Source: Haloactinopolyspora alba (GTDB lineage: Bacteria > Actinomycetota > Actinomycetes > Jiangellales > Jiangellaceae). Taken from it: 64,000 bases of DNA. Shown here one piece after another: positions 47,526-51,520 of the stretch. The stretch lies in NCBI RefSeq assembly GCF_003014555.1, contig NZ_PYGE01000011.1, forward strand, positions 1 through 64,000. The letters run 5' to 3'. Numbering within the stretch: the first letter of the stretch is position 1; each line of letters opens with the position of its first letter. The position numbers were made by a program, and so were the translations under genes. The notes below the pieces were generated by a model. The model was not told the origin of the DNA. It searched no databases and worked only from the letters and a program-made list of their open reading frames with translations.

Positions 47526-48434
47526 TCAGCGGCTCAGCGTGGTCTCGTGCCGCATTCGTGACAGCTTTTCGGGGTTGCGGACGGCGTAGAGCCCGGTGAC
47601 GAGGCCGTCGTCGATCCGCACCGCCACGACGCTGTCGAGTTCGCCGTCGAGTCGCATGATCAGCGCCGGGTAGCCATTCACCTGCACCGGTTCGAACGAC
47701 ATCTGAGATCCCAACCTGTCCAAGCCGGCGGCCAGCAGCCGGCCCACCTTGTCGGCCCCCACGACGGGCCGCGGTACGGCCTGCTTGACGCCACCGCCGT
47801 CGCCCACGAGGACGACGTCCGGCGCGAGAATGTCGAGCAATGGCTGCAGGTCGCCGGTTTCGGCGGCCCGTTTGAAGGCGTCGAGCGCGGCTCGGGACTC
47901 GGCCGGGGAGACGACGTCGCGCGGTCGACGCGCGGCCACGTGTTCCCGCGCCCGGTGGGCGGTCTGGCGCACGGCGGCGGGGGTCTTGCCGACGGCGTCG
48001 GCGATCTCGTCGTAGCCGAGGTCGAACACCTCACGCAGCACGAACACCGCCCGTTCCATCGGCTTGAGCGTCTCCAGCACGAGCAGCATCGCCATCGAGA
48101 CGCTCTCGGCCAGCTCGACATCCTCGGCAACGTCGGGCGCGGTCAGTAACGGCTCGGGCAACCAGGAACCGACGTAGGACTCCTTGCGGCGTCCAAGGGT
48201 GCGTAGCCGGGTCAGCGCCTGACGGGTGGCGATCCGGACCAGGTACGCACGCGGGTCACGCACCGTGTCCAGATCGACGCCGGCCCAGCGCAGCCACGTC
48301 TCCTGCAGCACGTCCTCGGCATCGGCAGCCGACGCCAGCATCTCGTAGACCACCGTGAACAACAGCTTGCGGTGCGCCACGAACACCTCGGTTGCCGGGT
48401 CGACGCGGGCGTCCTCGTTCGTGCCGCTGACCAT
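47526..48434 (-). CDS. sigJ: ECF41-group sigma factor with fused SnoaL-like regulatory domain
   Basis: A 302-residue sigma factor: sigma-2 (DAEDVLQETWLRW), the ECF41 linker motif WLPEP at 91-95, sigma-4 (LGYDEIADAVGKTPAAVRQT), then a SnoaL-like C-terminal domain with DGGG at 212-215, another ECF41 signature. In this group the C-terminal domain takes the place of an anti-sigma factor. ATG 48434 follows CAGGAGCCGCCC. A promoter of exact ECF41 form lies 43 bases upstream, so it probably transcribes itself. The usual carboxymuconolactone-decarboxylase partner is absent here; a cytochrome b gene is divergent instead. Confidence 0.92.
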   Translation of the reverse strand: MVSGTNEDARVDPATEVFVAHRKLLFTVVYEMLASAADAEDVLQETWLRWAGVDLDTVRDPRAYLVRIATRQALTRLRTLGRRKESYVGSWLPEPLLTAPDVAEDVELAESVSMAMLLVLETLKPMERAVFVLREVFDLGYDEIADAVGKTPAAVRQTAHRAREHVAARRPRDVVSPAESRAALDAFKRAAETGDLQPLLDILAPDVVLVGDGGGVKQAVPRPVVGADKVGRLLAAGLDRLGSQMSFEPVQVNGYPALIMRLDGELDSVVAVRIDDGLVTGLYAVRNPEKLSRMRHETTLSR

Positions 48435-48476
48435 GGGCGGCTCCTGTCTCTTCGCTCTCGACCGTGTCACCCATAG

Positions 48477-48503
48477 GACGCCTGGCAACACCGTTTTGTG
48501 ACA
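48477..48503 (-). promoter_or_regulatory. ECF41-type autoregulatory promoter
   Basis: On the minus strand TGTCACA (48503-48497), 16 bases, CGTC (48480-48477): identical to the published ECF41 promoter consensus. It points to the ECF41 sigma gene starting at 48434. Confidence 0.75.
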
Positions 48504-48532
48504 TCCCCGTGGCGTCCGTCATCCGGCAGCAC

Positions 48533-48559
48533 TGTCACAAGGATCGTTTCGCCGGTGTC
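48533..48559 (+). promoter_or_regulatory. Second ECF41-like promoter toward cytochrome b
   Basis: TGTCACA (48533-48539), 16 bases, then TGTC (48556-48559), one mismatch from CGTC. It faces the cytochrome b gene starting at 48596, 36 bases further on. The identical -35 box and identical spacing make control by the neighbouring ECF41 factor plausible; the -10 mismatch leaves doubt. Confidence 0.5.
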
Positions 48560-48595
48560 TCATGTACGACCGGCCGACTGCGGGGAGCGCAGAGC

Positions 48596-50284
48596 ATGAG
48601 TATCACGACCAAGAAACCGGATCTCCAGAACGGACGCGTGCGCAGCCTGGCCACCCGCCTGGTGCGTCTGGTGGACGGGGACTCCCCGTCGTCCACCGGG
48701 TCGGCGCACGGTCTTCGACGCACGTTCCCAAATCGCTGGTCACTGCTGTTCGGCCATATCGCGTCGTTCAGCTTCCTGCTGATCATCGTGTCCGGCGTCT
48801 TCCTGACGTTGTGGTTCGAGCCCTCGATGGCCACGGTCACCTACAGGGGCGACTATCTTCCGCTGCGCGGTGTCGAGATGTCCGAGGCGTACGCCTCCAC
48901 CTTGGAACTGTCCTTCGAGGTCCGCGGGGGCCTGCTGATGCGCCAGATCCACAACTGGGCGACGCTCGTGTTCGTCGCCGCGCTGTCCGCCCACATGCTG
49001 CGCATCTTCTTCACCGGCGCGTTCCGCCGGCCGTGGCGGCTCGCCTGGCTGATCGTGCTGGGCCTGCTGGTGCTGGGCATGGTGGCGGCGTACACCGGCA
49101 ACGCGTTGCCCGACGATCAGTTGACCGGGACCGGCTTGCGCGTGACCGAGGGCGTCATCCTCGCGGTCCCGGTCATCGGCACGTATCTGTCCTCGTTCCT
49201 GTTCGGTGGCGAGTTCCCAGGCGACGACATCATCGCCCGGTTGACCTTCGTCCATGCCCTGGTGCTGCCCGTACTGATGGTCGCACTGTTCGCCGTGGGG
49301 GTGGCACACGCCCGGCGTCGGCAGCCGGCACTGCGGACCGCAGGAGGAGACATCGGCAAGGCCGCCCACGAGCCGAACGTCGCGGTCGCGTCCGGTCTGG
49401 ACCGAACGGTCAGAGCTGGCGGCCTCATGCTCATCGTTTTCGGTGTCATCGTCCTGATGGCCGCCACCATCCAGATCAATCCGGTCTGGCTCTGGGGACC
49501 GTTCGACGCGGCGCAGGCCACTGCCGGCAGCCAGCCGCCCTGGTACTTCGGTTTTCTCGACGGGGGACTGCGGCTGATGCCTCCGTGGGACGTCGACCTG
49601 TTCGGACACGAACTGACGTTGAGCGTGCTCGTCCCAGCCATGGTGATGCCGGGTCTGATGCTGACCGCGCTGGCCGTGTACCCGTGGATCGAACAGCGGG
49701 CAACCGGCGTCCGGCCCGACGACCACACGCTGGATCGGCCGCGGAACATGCCGGTACGCACCGGCCTCGGGGTCGCGTTCATCGTCTTCTACCTCGTGCT
49801 GTGGATCGCCGGCGGCAACGACATACTCGCCACGGTCCTCCAGGTTCCGCTGAACTGGATCACCCGATTCCTGCAGGTCAGCCTCATCGTCATGCCTCCG
49901 TTGGCGTTCTGGATCACGAAACGGATCTGTTTGGGGCTGCAACTGCGTGACCGCGACATGGTGCTGCACGGACGGGAGTCCGGCGTCATCGTGGCGAGTT
50001 CGAACGGTGCGTTCTCCGAGTTGCGCACACAGCTCTCAGCACTCGATGCCGAGCTTCTGACGTCGCATCCGCAACGGATGCCGTTCGACCCGGGACCACC
50101 CGCCGACGCCAACGGGGTACCGAATCCGAACTATCGGGCGGATCGACGTCGCGCGCGGATCTCGCGGTTCTACTTCGCCGACGTCGTACAGACGTACGCC
50201 TCAGGCCAGGATCACCACCGTGAGGGTCACCACGCTCGGCAGCACGAAGACCGACAGCGCGAAGAAGAGCGTCAGCGCGGCTGA
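48596..50284 (+). CDS. Orphan cytochrome b (QcrB-like)
   Basis: A 562-residue membrane protein resembling the cytochrome b subunit of actinobacterial bc1 complexes. Helix II has H119-x13-H133, the normal heme pair. In the fourth-helix position H220 is present but the expected partner (residue 234/235) is Val/Gly; the next His is H238. A PPWYFGFLDGGLRLMPPWD segment replaces the usual PEWY Qo loop. ATG 48596 follows GGGGAG. No qcrA, qcrC or cytochrome oxidase genes are near. The last 84 bases run convergently into the J-domain gene and encode a charged tail without homology. Divergent from an ECF41 sigma gene. Confidence 0.82.
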   Translation: MSITTKKPDLQNGRVRSLATRLVRLVDGDSPSSTGSAHGLRRTFPNRWSLLFGHIASFSFLLIIVSGVFLTLWFEPSMATVTYRGDYLPLRGVEMSEAYASTLELSFEVRGGLLMRQIHNWATLVFVAALSAHMLRIFFTGAFRRPWRLAWLIVLGLLVLGMVAAYTGNALPDDQLTGTGLRVTEGVILAVPVIGTYLSSFLFGGEFPGDDIIARLTFVHALVLPVLMVALFAVGVAHARRRQPALRTAGGDIGKAAHEPNVAVASGLDRTVRAGGLMLIVFGVIVLMAATIQINPVWLWGPFDAAQATAGSQPPWYFGFLDGGLRLMPPWDVDLFGHELTLSVLVPAMVMPGLMLTALAVYPWIEQRATGVRPDDHTLDRPRNMPVRTGLGVAFIVFYLVLWIAGGNDILATVLQVPLNWITRFLQVSLIVMPPLAFWITKRICLGLQLRDRDMVLHGRESGVIVASSNGAFSELRTQLSALDAELLTSHPQRMPFDPGPPADANGVPNPNYRADRRRARISRFYFADVVQTYASGQDHHREGHHARQHEDRQREEERQRG

Positions 50285-50812
50285 CACGCGGGTGCCACCA
50301 CCACGATCATCGCCGCCGGTCCTTTTCGTCCGCCAGAGCGCGAGTAGCCCGGTCACCATCGCCGCCGGCCAGAGCAGGGGTCCGAGCAGCGCGAGCACCA
50401 CGGTCACGACCGCCCATGGATTCGATCCGGCTGGGGCAGGGGAGACGGACGCCGGACGCGGGTCGGTTCGAGGGCCGCCGCCGGCCGAATCGCGCGGCTG
50501 ACCAGACATCCCGCGACCGAACGACGACGGTGGTGCACCACGGCGTGTGGTGCCGCGGAACTCACGATCCATCCGCCCGGGCCGGCGCGCCGCGTCGTAG
50601 GCGATGCGGCGCCGGGGATCGAGCAGGATGTCTCGGGCACGTGTCAACTGGCGGAACGTGCTGTCGTCGCCGCCGGCATCGGGGTGTCCGCCTCGAGCGG
50701 CACGCCGCCGGTACGCCCGAACCACCTCGTCGTCACTCACGTCCCGCTCGACGCCGAGGACGGCGCGCGGATCGCGCCCGTCCAGTTCCGTGAAGTCACT
50801 GTTCACCGGCAC
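50201..50812 (-). CDS. J-domain (DnaJ-like) membrane protein
   Basis: A 203-residue protein. An N-terminal J-domain at about 9-75 (DPRAVLGVERDVSDDEVVRA, intact HPD in RGGHPDAGG, and RARDILLDPRRRIAYD) is followed by a Gly/Pro/Ser linker and two C-terminal membrane helices (PWAVVTVVLALLGPLLWPAA, LTLFFALSVFVLPSVVTLTV). It may recruit Hsp70 to the membrane. GTG 50812 is chosen because GGAGGG lies seven bases before it; GTG 50806 is in frame. It overlaps the 3' end of cytochrome b by 84 bases. Confidence 0.75.
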   Translation of the reverse strand: MPVNSDFTELDGRDPRAVLGVERDVSDDEVVRAYRRRAARGGHPDAGGDDSTFRQLTRARDILLDPRRRIAYDAARRPGRMDREFRGTTRRGAPPSSFGRGMSGQPRDSAGGGPRTDPRPASVSPAPAGSNPWAVVTVVLALLGPLLWPAAMVTGLLALWRTKRTGGDDRGGGTRVSAALTLFFALSVFVLPSVVTLTVVILA

Positions 50813-50910
50813 ACCACACCCTCCCGCGCCACGGACACGTCGTTGCTGCACATACGACGCCGCGCGGGACAGGAATGTGACACGCCGCGGTCGCTCCCGA
50901 AGACGCCGGC

Positions 50911-51520
50911 TCAGACGCGTGCGGAGCTGTCCAGCACGTCGGCGAGGGACAGGGGAGCGGTTCCCGTGATACGGCGGACCTCGTCCGAGACGGTGTCCCA
51001 GCGCTGCTCTCGGACAGACGCGAACATCGTCGAGAAGGCTTGGGTCCACCACGCGTCCGCACCCGAGTTCGCGAGTTCGGCGACGTGCGTGCGAGGTTCG
51101 ACGTCGACGTACCGCACCGGTTCGGGTGACGTGCGCGTGACCACGTCGGCCACCGCGTCCATGCTCAACGCCGCCGGCCCGGTGATGTCGTGGTGCAGAC
51201 CGGTGGGGGCCGACGTAGCGAGGATCGCCAGGCAACGCCCCGCATCCTCGCGTGAGACGAGCGAGATGCGTCCGTCCCCGGCGGGCACGCGCAACGTCAC
51301 CGTCGCTGGACACGAAGACCAGGACGTCGACGTCTCGCAGCGCCGAGCGCAGCGACGCAAGGTCGTCGTAGTCGGCACGCACGGGGAGGACGGCCTCGTG
51401 TGGCCGGACGGCTGCCGGCCGGCGCGCCAGTGCGACGATTTCATGGGCGGACGTGGCCGCCAGCACGTCCACGACCTGCCCGCCCACCGAACCCGTGGCC
51501 CCGGTCACCGCGATTCTCAC
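50911..51520 (-). pseudogene. NmrA-like NAD(P)-binding protein, internally deleted and frameshifted
   Basis: The 5' part reads MRIAVTGATGSVGGQVVDVL through to DVDVLVFVSSDGDV in one frame. The 3' part, PAGDGRISLVSREDAGRCLA to the stop at 50911, continues in another frame. In intact NmrA/SDR_a5 proteins about 80 residues separate these motifs; here they abut near 51295-51315. So the gene has lost its middle and its frame. The C-terminal half is otherwise intact, suggesting recent decay. It would have been a quinone or nucleotide-sensing reductase-like protein. Confidence 0.75.

Follow-up and report, generated by a model that had tools for sequence, protein, structure and literature searches.

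ECF41 sigma factors are widespread. In the 64-kb window (the whole stretch of DNA analysed, 64,000 nt from Haloactinopolyspora alba), the gene of an ECF41 sigma factor lies divergent from a cytochrome b gene, which raises the question of whether such a sigma factor controls a membrane cytochrome here, and what kind of cytochrome that would be. The features of the locus were as follows.

47526–48434, minus strand: gene encoding the ECF41 sigma factor of 302 aa (regions 2 and 4, WLPEP, DGGGVK, NPEKL, family models)
48477–48503, minus strand: ECF41-type box of the sigma gene, TGTCACA-N16-CGTC (pattern search)
48533–48559, plus strand: ECF41-type box of the cytochrome b gene, TGTCACA-N16-TGTC (pattern search)
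48596–50284, plus strand: orphan QcrB-like cytochrome b gene, 562 aa, type-1 clade (family model, alignment, tree)
48755–48757, plus strand: codon 54, His; the QN-site Glu in canonical QcrB (alignment)
49298–49300, plus strand: codon 235, Gly; the second helix-D His (heme bH) in canonical QcrB (alignment)
49535–49546, plus strand: PPWY replacing PDWY, the quinol-oxidation motif (alignment)
50201–50812, minus strand: DnaJ-like gene, convergent with that of the cytochrome b; J domain followed by a C-terminal part judged hydrophobic by eye
50856–50882, minus strand: third ECF41-type box, TGTCACA-N16-CGTC, preceding the DnaJ-like gene, 2.3 kb away

An ECF41 sigma factor gene and three ECF41-type boxes

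The sigma protein scored over the cut-offs of the SigX4 (TIGR02957) and SigJ (NF007214) models. Sigma regions 2 and 4 were present with WLPEP in the linker, and region 4 ended near residue 166 of 302, followed by a C-terminal extension long enough for the ~100 aa expected of ECF41. The protein also contained DGGGVK and NPEKL, which we take to be motifs of the ECF41 C-terminal extension; no Pfam SnoaL match was found at E 0.001. WLPEP, a C-terminal extension and the promoter are given as ECF41 features in the available passages of Wecke et al. 2012 (PMC3426412). Judged from the linker motif, the extension, the family models and the promoter together, the protein is an ECF41 sigma factor, as the first-pass annotation had it.

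No obvious anti-sigma gene was present next to the sigma gene, whose immediate neighbours were an alpha/beta hydrolase gene and the cytochrome b gene, and a COE partner gene (carboxymuconolactone decarboxylase, oxidoreductase or epimerase) was absent from the adjoining position, occupied instead by the cytochrome b gene. An adjacent COE partner is usual, not universal, 34% of ECF41 loci being solitary in Table 4 of Wecke et al. (PMC3426412). A close orthologue of the sigma in one Jiangella genome (G004) adjoins a CMD-family gene, and another genome (G014) looks alike. Counting this sigma, the H. alba genome contained eight ECF41-like sigma matches of almost full length, seven of them with WLPEP.

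The sigma and cytochrome b genes are separated by a 161-bp gap. The TGTCACA-N16-CGTC that the first-pass annotation had placed on the strand of the sigma gene was found running from 48503 to 48477 (minus strand), 42 nt upstream of the ATG at 48434, and the TGTCACA-N16-TGTC said to face the cytochrome b gene was found at 48533–48559 (plus strand), 36 nt upstream of the ATG at 48596. The third box, before the DnaJ-like gene, was absent from that annotation. TGTCACA occurred three times in the window (shuffles: mean 5.2), in all three cases with YGTC 16 bases beyond it. Across the H. alba genome TGTCACA-N16-YGTC gave nine sites versus one for the reversed pattern, and three of the nine fell inside one 2.4-kb stretch, the sigma/cytochrome b/DnaJ-like locus. 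The other six preceded two NAD-epimerase genes, an NmrA-like gene, an ECF41-like sigma gene, a DoxX_2 gene and one uncertain ORF.

Directly upstream of the DnaJ-like gene (50911–51520, minus strand), an NmrA/epimerase-like ORF was spread across two frames and apparently lacked its middle part, giving it the look of a COE-type gene in decay.

The divergent pair and its boxes in Jiangellaceae

Twenty-two Jiangellaceae genomes were compared, the 12 genomes of genus g4 being taken as Jiangella by genome number and kinship. After duplicate records of the same genes had been merged, 40 QcrB-like matches were counted. Of these, 19 were Rieske-less and 20 Rieske-linked; the remaining one (L149 on G018:C4, a distant match of 41% beside a Rieske-like gene) was assigned to neither group.

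The first-pass annotation had named conservation of the pair and of both boxes as the check on its proposal, and this was borne out in four of the 22 genomes, from two genera: in H. alba, a MAG (G001), Phytoactinopolyspora alkaliphila (G016) and P. endophytica (G017) the two genes diverge and each has a box of its own. On the sigma side the -35 element was TGTCACA in all four pairs, with C, T, C or A preceding GTC. On the cytochrome b side it was TGTCACA, CGTCACA, CGTCACA and TGTCACG (one deviation in three of the four), always with N16 and with T or G preceding GTC; cytochrome b-side boxes in general are weaker than the ECF41 consensus. The two -35 elements were 29, 50, 53 and 53 bases apart, indicating that the geometry of the pair is not rigid. 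Other neighbours of the pair mostly differed among the four genomes, a DnaJ-like gene downstream being common to H. alba and G001.

In each of the 12 Jiangella genomes a box preceded the gene of a second QcrB, which was Rieske-less, and no ECF41 sigma match was detected in the 11–20 kb surrounding it. The link between box and cytochrome b is therefore wider than the local pair proposed at first: the 12 Jiangella keep the box while the sigma orthologue is elsewhere or was not found. In 11 of these 12 loci (L135–L146) between one and three serpin-like genes and a kinase-cluster gene lay downstream of the orphan qcrB, joined in 10 loci by a response regulator (one representative of each cluster was Pfam-confirmed; the twelfth contig ends at the locus).

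A different Rieske-less QcrB (type 2), also with a box, was present in G017, G018 and G020. In G017 (L151, G017:C3:162500-182400) the boxed type-2 gene was convergent with an epimerase–ECF41 sigma operon having its own box, so that a sigma gene beside a QcrB paralogue was found in a second arrangement. In G020 the sigma convergent with the type-2 QcrB had no WLPEP.

Boxes were searched for from 200 bp upstream to 30 bp into each gene, with 300 rounds of shuffling. A loose pattern was matched upstream of 19/19 Rieske-less paralogues (shuffles: mean 0.5, maximum 3), a fit partly by construction since the pattern was widened after variants had been seen; the fairer count is that of exact TGTCACA, found at 16 of the 19 (shuffle mean 0.04). 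Exact TGTCACA plus C/TGTC was found at five (shuffle mean 0.01). Three Jiangella gene starts were assumed too far upstream, which put the box at the assumed start and left its position unaffected. Columns outside the search read GTCnTA, with T in 17 and A in 14 of 18 cytochrome b boxes (Jiangella L143, with a 17-base spacer, being excluded) and with T and A each in 10/10 DnaJ boxes. That all these boxes are chance matches is extremely improbable: a seven-base core with a four-base partner was sought, and the reversed controls gave one and seven sites, but the shuffles and the occurrence of boxes throughout the family argue against chance.

Ordinary qcr control was set aside as an explanation of the boxes, 0/20 Rieske-linked QcrBs having a box directly upstream, where the region searched lies inside the operon. 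The whole canonical operon was covered in H. alba only, and contig C17 had no TGTCACA-N16-YGTC site.

In a tree, 16 of the 19 Rieske-less paralogues formed one clade (100/100) and the other three another (100/100), the latter (type 2) grouping with the canonical QcrBs of the family; the tree was midpoint-rooted for drawing only, and seven Jiangella rows were of unusual composition. As boxes were found in both clades, two separate paralogue lineages appear to have the same promoter type.

A box does not name its sigma, because the H. alba genome has other ECF41-like sigmas. A serious, though clearly less probable, possibility is that the boxes are real ECF41-type promoters at which one or more other ECF41 paralogues drive cytochrome b, the divergent sigma being a passenger in four genomes. 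The eight ECF41-like matches in H. alba would allow this, and so would the 12 Jiangella genomes that keep the box with no ECF41 sigma within 11–20 kb and the four of 16 genomes with type-1 cytochrome b (G006, G008, G009 and G012) in which the best sigma match was just 55–58%, none being above 58%. Against it, in four genomes of two genera whose other neighbours differ, sigma and cytochrome b share one intergenic region that holds a box for each of the two genes. It is also opposed by co-occurrence: a sigma orthologue of at least 68% was present in 12/16 genomes with type-1 cytochrome b and in 0/6 without it (P = 0.003, or 0.014 without two incomplete genomes; shared ancestry uncorrected).

A DnaJ-like gene and a wider candidate regulon

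Homologues of the DnaJ-like gene had a box in 10/10 loci examined, 33–106 bases before the aligned start. Exact TGTCACA was found at eight of the ten (shuffles: mean 0.003, maximum 1) and the loose pattern at all ten (shuffles: mean 0.1, maximum 2); five weaker homologues align mostly over the J-domain half. A further DnaJ-like match, on G016:C1, was boxed too.

In G001, G016 and G010, TGTCACA-N16-NGTC gave 29 sites versus seven for the reversed controls. Families recurring downstream of the 38 sites in four genomes were NAD-epimerases (six, Pfam-confirmed), ECF41-like sigmas (six), DnaJ-like proteins (four) and DoxX_2 proteins (two). Four of the 38 sites were without a good ORF downstream, and several others overlapped predicted genes or preceded doubtful ORFs. 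The DoxX_2 membrane proteins behind ECF41-type boxes were at L009 1084–1467 (minus strand) and L228 1578–1916 (plus strand), in two genomes; DoxX_2 is a possible further non-COE target.

The cytochrome b as a modified QcrB

The cytochrome b protein scored over the cut-off of the QcrB family model and was modelled with a QcrB fold (pLDDT 71). It is 61% identical to a separate, Rieske-linked QcrB of the same genome (G000:C17). Within the 64-kb window the gene is an orphan, in agreement with the first-pass annotation: the best match to the genome's own QcrA had E = 0.93 over 43 aa and the best QcrC-like match E = 0.86 over 60 aa, both at chance level (the second query, assumed to be QcrC, was an ORF that directly precedes qcrA and has two CxxCH motifs).

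Residues of the 16-member clade were compared with 20 canonical, 12 other actinobacterial and three type-2 rows. From bc1 knowledge we take the first histidines to be ligands of heme bL and the second to be ligands of heme bH. Both heme-bL histidines were kept, each in 16/16; the second helix-D histidine (heme bH) was lost in 15 of the 16, being kept in P. alkaliphila, and the second helix-B histidine was lost in five. At the QN and QP sites, whose residues are named in section 6 of PMC8616580, the QP-site (quinol-site) Asp was replaced by Pro in 16/16 and the QN-site (quinone-reduction-site) Glu by His, Gln or Pro in 16/16. The H. alba protein thus has three of the four heme-ligand histidines of a QcrB, with Gly as the second helix-D residue, PPWY in place of a Qo motif with an acidic second residue (PDWY in the relatives), and His for the QN-site Glu. 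HMMER alignments to the QcrB of C. glutamicum and M. tuberculosis likewise put Gly opposite His.

Kao and Hunte in 2014 reportedly described variation of the Qo motif. The motif position varies in the available text of PMC9162462, so that Pro need not abolish activity, and D-to-P by itself was dropped as proof of quinol-site loss for this reason. Searched as an exact degenerate DNA motif only, PPWY turned up in 16 genomes out of 393; these belong without exception to the 22 of the family, and 0/371 others of the class had the motif.

At positions invariant across the other 35 rows, 24/57 were changed in the cytoplasmic half versus 7/62 in the periplasmic half (Fisher p 1.5e-4), a position counting as changed if altered in at least 12 of the 16 and the halves being split by the helix ends of a moderate model (mean pLDDT 71.1). 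The three type-2 rows had changes at 6/128 positions invariant in the canonical and other rows.

Open reading frames were intact in 16/16 clade members. dN/dS was about 0.21–0.29 in four close orthologues (canonical QcrB about 0.14–0.22) and 0.15–0.33 in four Jiangella pairs (canonical QcrB about 0.09–0.14), and by these sequence comparisons the gene is under purifying selection. It is very unlikely that the gene is a decaying, functionless QcrB duplicate with boxes left over: cofactor-site residues have been lost and dN/dS is somewhat above that of canonical QcrB, but dN/dS is well below 1, all frames are open, and D-to-P, the bL histidines and the box are each present in 16/16.

Its residues mark the protein as a modified QcrB that is no ordinary subunit of a bc1 complex. 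The first-pass view of a membrane b-type cytochrome as an unusual ECF41 target keeps its point in that the candidate target is a non-COE membrane protein, and needs amending in that this is a modified QcrB without several defining bc1 residues rather than a plain b-type cytochrome.

The Rieske and cytochrome c subunits dock on the periplasmic half of cytochrome b, and in the paralogue 55/62 invariant positions of that half are kept. This would suit a rather unlikely alternative, in which the paralogue takes the place of QcrB in the bcc-aa3 supercomplex, or forms mixed dimers with it, as a regulatory subunit not working alone. Streptomyces coelicolor QcrB3 co-purifies with supercomplex parts according to the available text of PMC7931247, but QcrB3 probably keeps the canonical motifs, as judged from aligned Streptomyces loci other than SCO7236 itself. 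More speculative, and considerably less likely again, is a natural half-dead cytochrome b that would join canonical QcrB in a mixed bcc dimer, the electrons of its heme bL leaving only via the heme bL of the partner; a heme bL–heme bL bridge is reported for engineered bc1 dimers in the available part of PMC4330944. Were such a mixed dimer real, an ECF41 sigma would adjust, during redox stress, how far the respiratory chain pumps protons or leaks electrons.

A proposed ECF41 regulon with non-COE targets

The reading we favour, with a probability of about 0.68, is an autoregulated ECF41 regulon that extends beyond COE genes and includes a QcrB derivative working by its periplasmic half. The sigma would be governed by its own C-terminal extension, without an anti-sigma, and would be released through a conformational change of that extension, as described in the available passages of PMC8999054. 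It would then start transcription of the cytochrome b and DnaJ-like genes as well as of the sigma gene itself. Promoters of the form TGTCACA-N16-NGTCnTA may define a family-wide Jiangellaceae regulon comprising an orphan QcrB paralogue, a J-domain protein and probably a DoxX-like membrane protein, plus NAD-epimerases.

In the QcrB paralogue the periplasmic half is preserved, with both heme-bL ligands and most positions on the quinol side, and much of the cytoplasmic half is lost, namely the quinone-reduction site and heme-bH ligation. The protein probably binds heme bL on the periplasmic side and would be unable to complete a Q cycle. Most likely it is a stress-induced membrane redox or respiratory-complex-modifying protein using heme bL without a Q cycle, the oxidoreductase-type genes in its company being suggestive of a redox role at the membrane. 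The protein could function by itself or as part of the respiratory supercomplex, as suggested for S. coelicolor QcrB3. Control of Rieske-less QcrB by ECF41-type sigmas is well supported; promoter activity of the boxes, their use by this particular sigma and not by one of its paralogues, and the redox role are our inferences.

In the available text of Wecke et al. 2012 (PMC3426412) COE genes were the only detectable ECF41 targets, and S. meliloti RpoE9 had a single target too in that of PMC6180224. Among the titles in a literature search of incomplete coverage, none linked ECF41 with cytochrome b or with DnaJ, and in the one paper found to mention both ECF41 and cytochrome b, other sigmas own the cytochrome b-like gene. 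An ECF41 regulon whose conserved targets include non-COE genes, among them that of a half-degenerate QcrB, would appear to be new. Its further conserved targets (a modified cytochrome b, a J-domain protein and perhaps a DoxX-like protein) point to membrane redox or quinone-linked stress as an ECF41 theme, and supply promoters open to assay. A QcrB clade without the cytoplasmic heme ligand and quinone site, and yet under selection, lets a cytochrome b without a Q cycle be tested.

Comparison with known systems

The cytochrome b resembled canonical actinobacterial QcrB of bcc-aa3 (C. glutamicum 7Q21, M. tuberculosis 7E1V) in sequence family, fold and heme bL ligands, and differed from it in the loss of one heme-bH ligand, the QN-site Glu and the QP-site Asp and in having no Rieske gene in the window.

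Like QcrB2 and QcrB3 of S. coelicolor, it is a QcrB paralogue encoded away from qcrCAB (PMC7931247, available passages). Unlike the PPWY clade, 18/18 Rieske-less Streptomyces loci (among the best 80 of 144) had PDWY and four His, and five of the 18, used in the tree, stood apart from the Jiangellaceae paralogues. Common descent with the Streptomyces-type orphan was considered and dropped, the tree giving it no support. An upstream box was found in one of these 18 loci (among the best 80 of 144), an orphan qcrB of S. candidus (L064) with TGTCACA-N16-CGTC 116 bases before the cytochrome b match; this box is possibly real and possibly due to chance. The comparable sequence of S. spiroverticillatus (L073) has CCTCACA.

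The locus shared with ECF41 of B. licheniformis and R. sphaeroides, as described in the available part of PMC3426412, the WLPEP linker, a long C-terminal extension and TGTCACA-N16(±1)-CGTC promoters, and the divergent arrangement with boxes is one of the contexts listed there. It differed from those two systems in its partner, here a QcrB paralogue and there a carboxymuconolactone decarboxylase, oxidoreductase or epimerase, and in having several conserved candidate targets, compared with the single target given in the same passages (PMC3426412).
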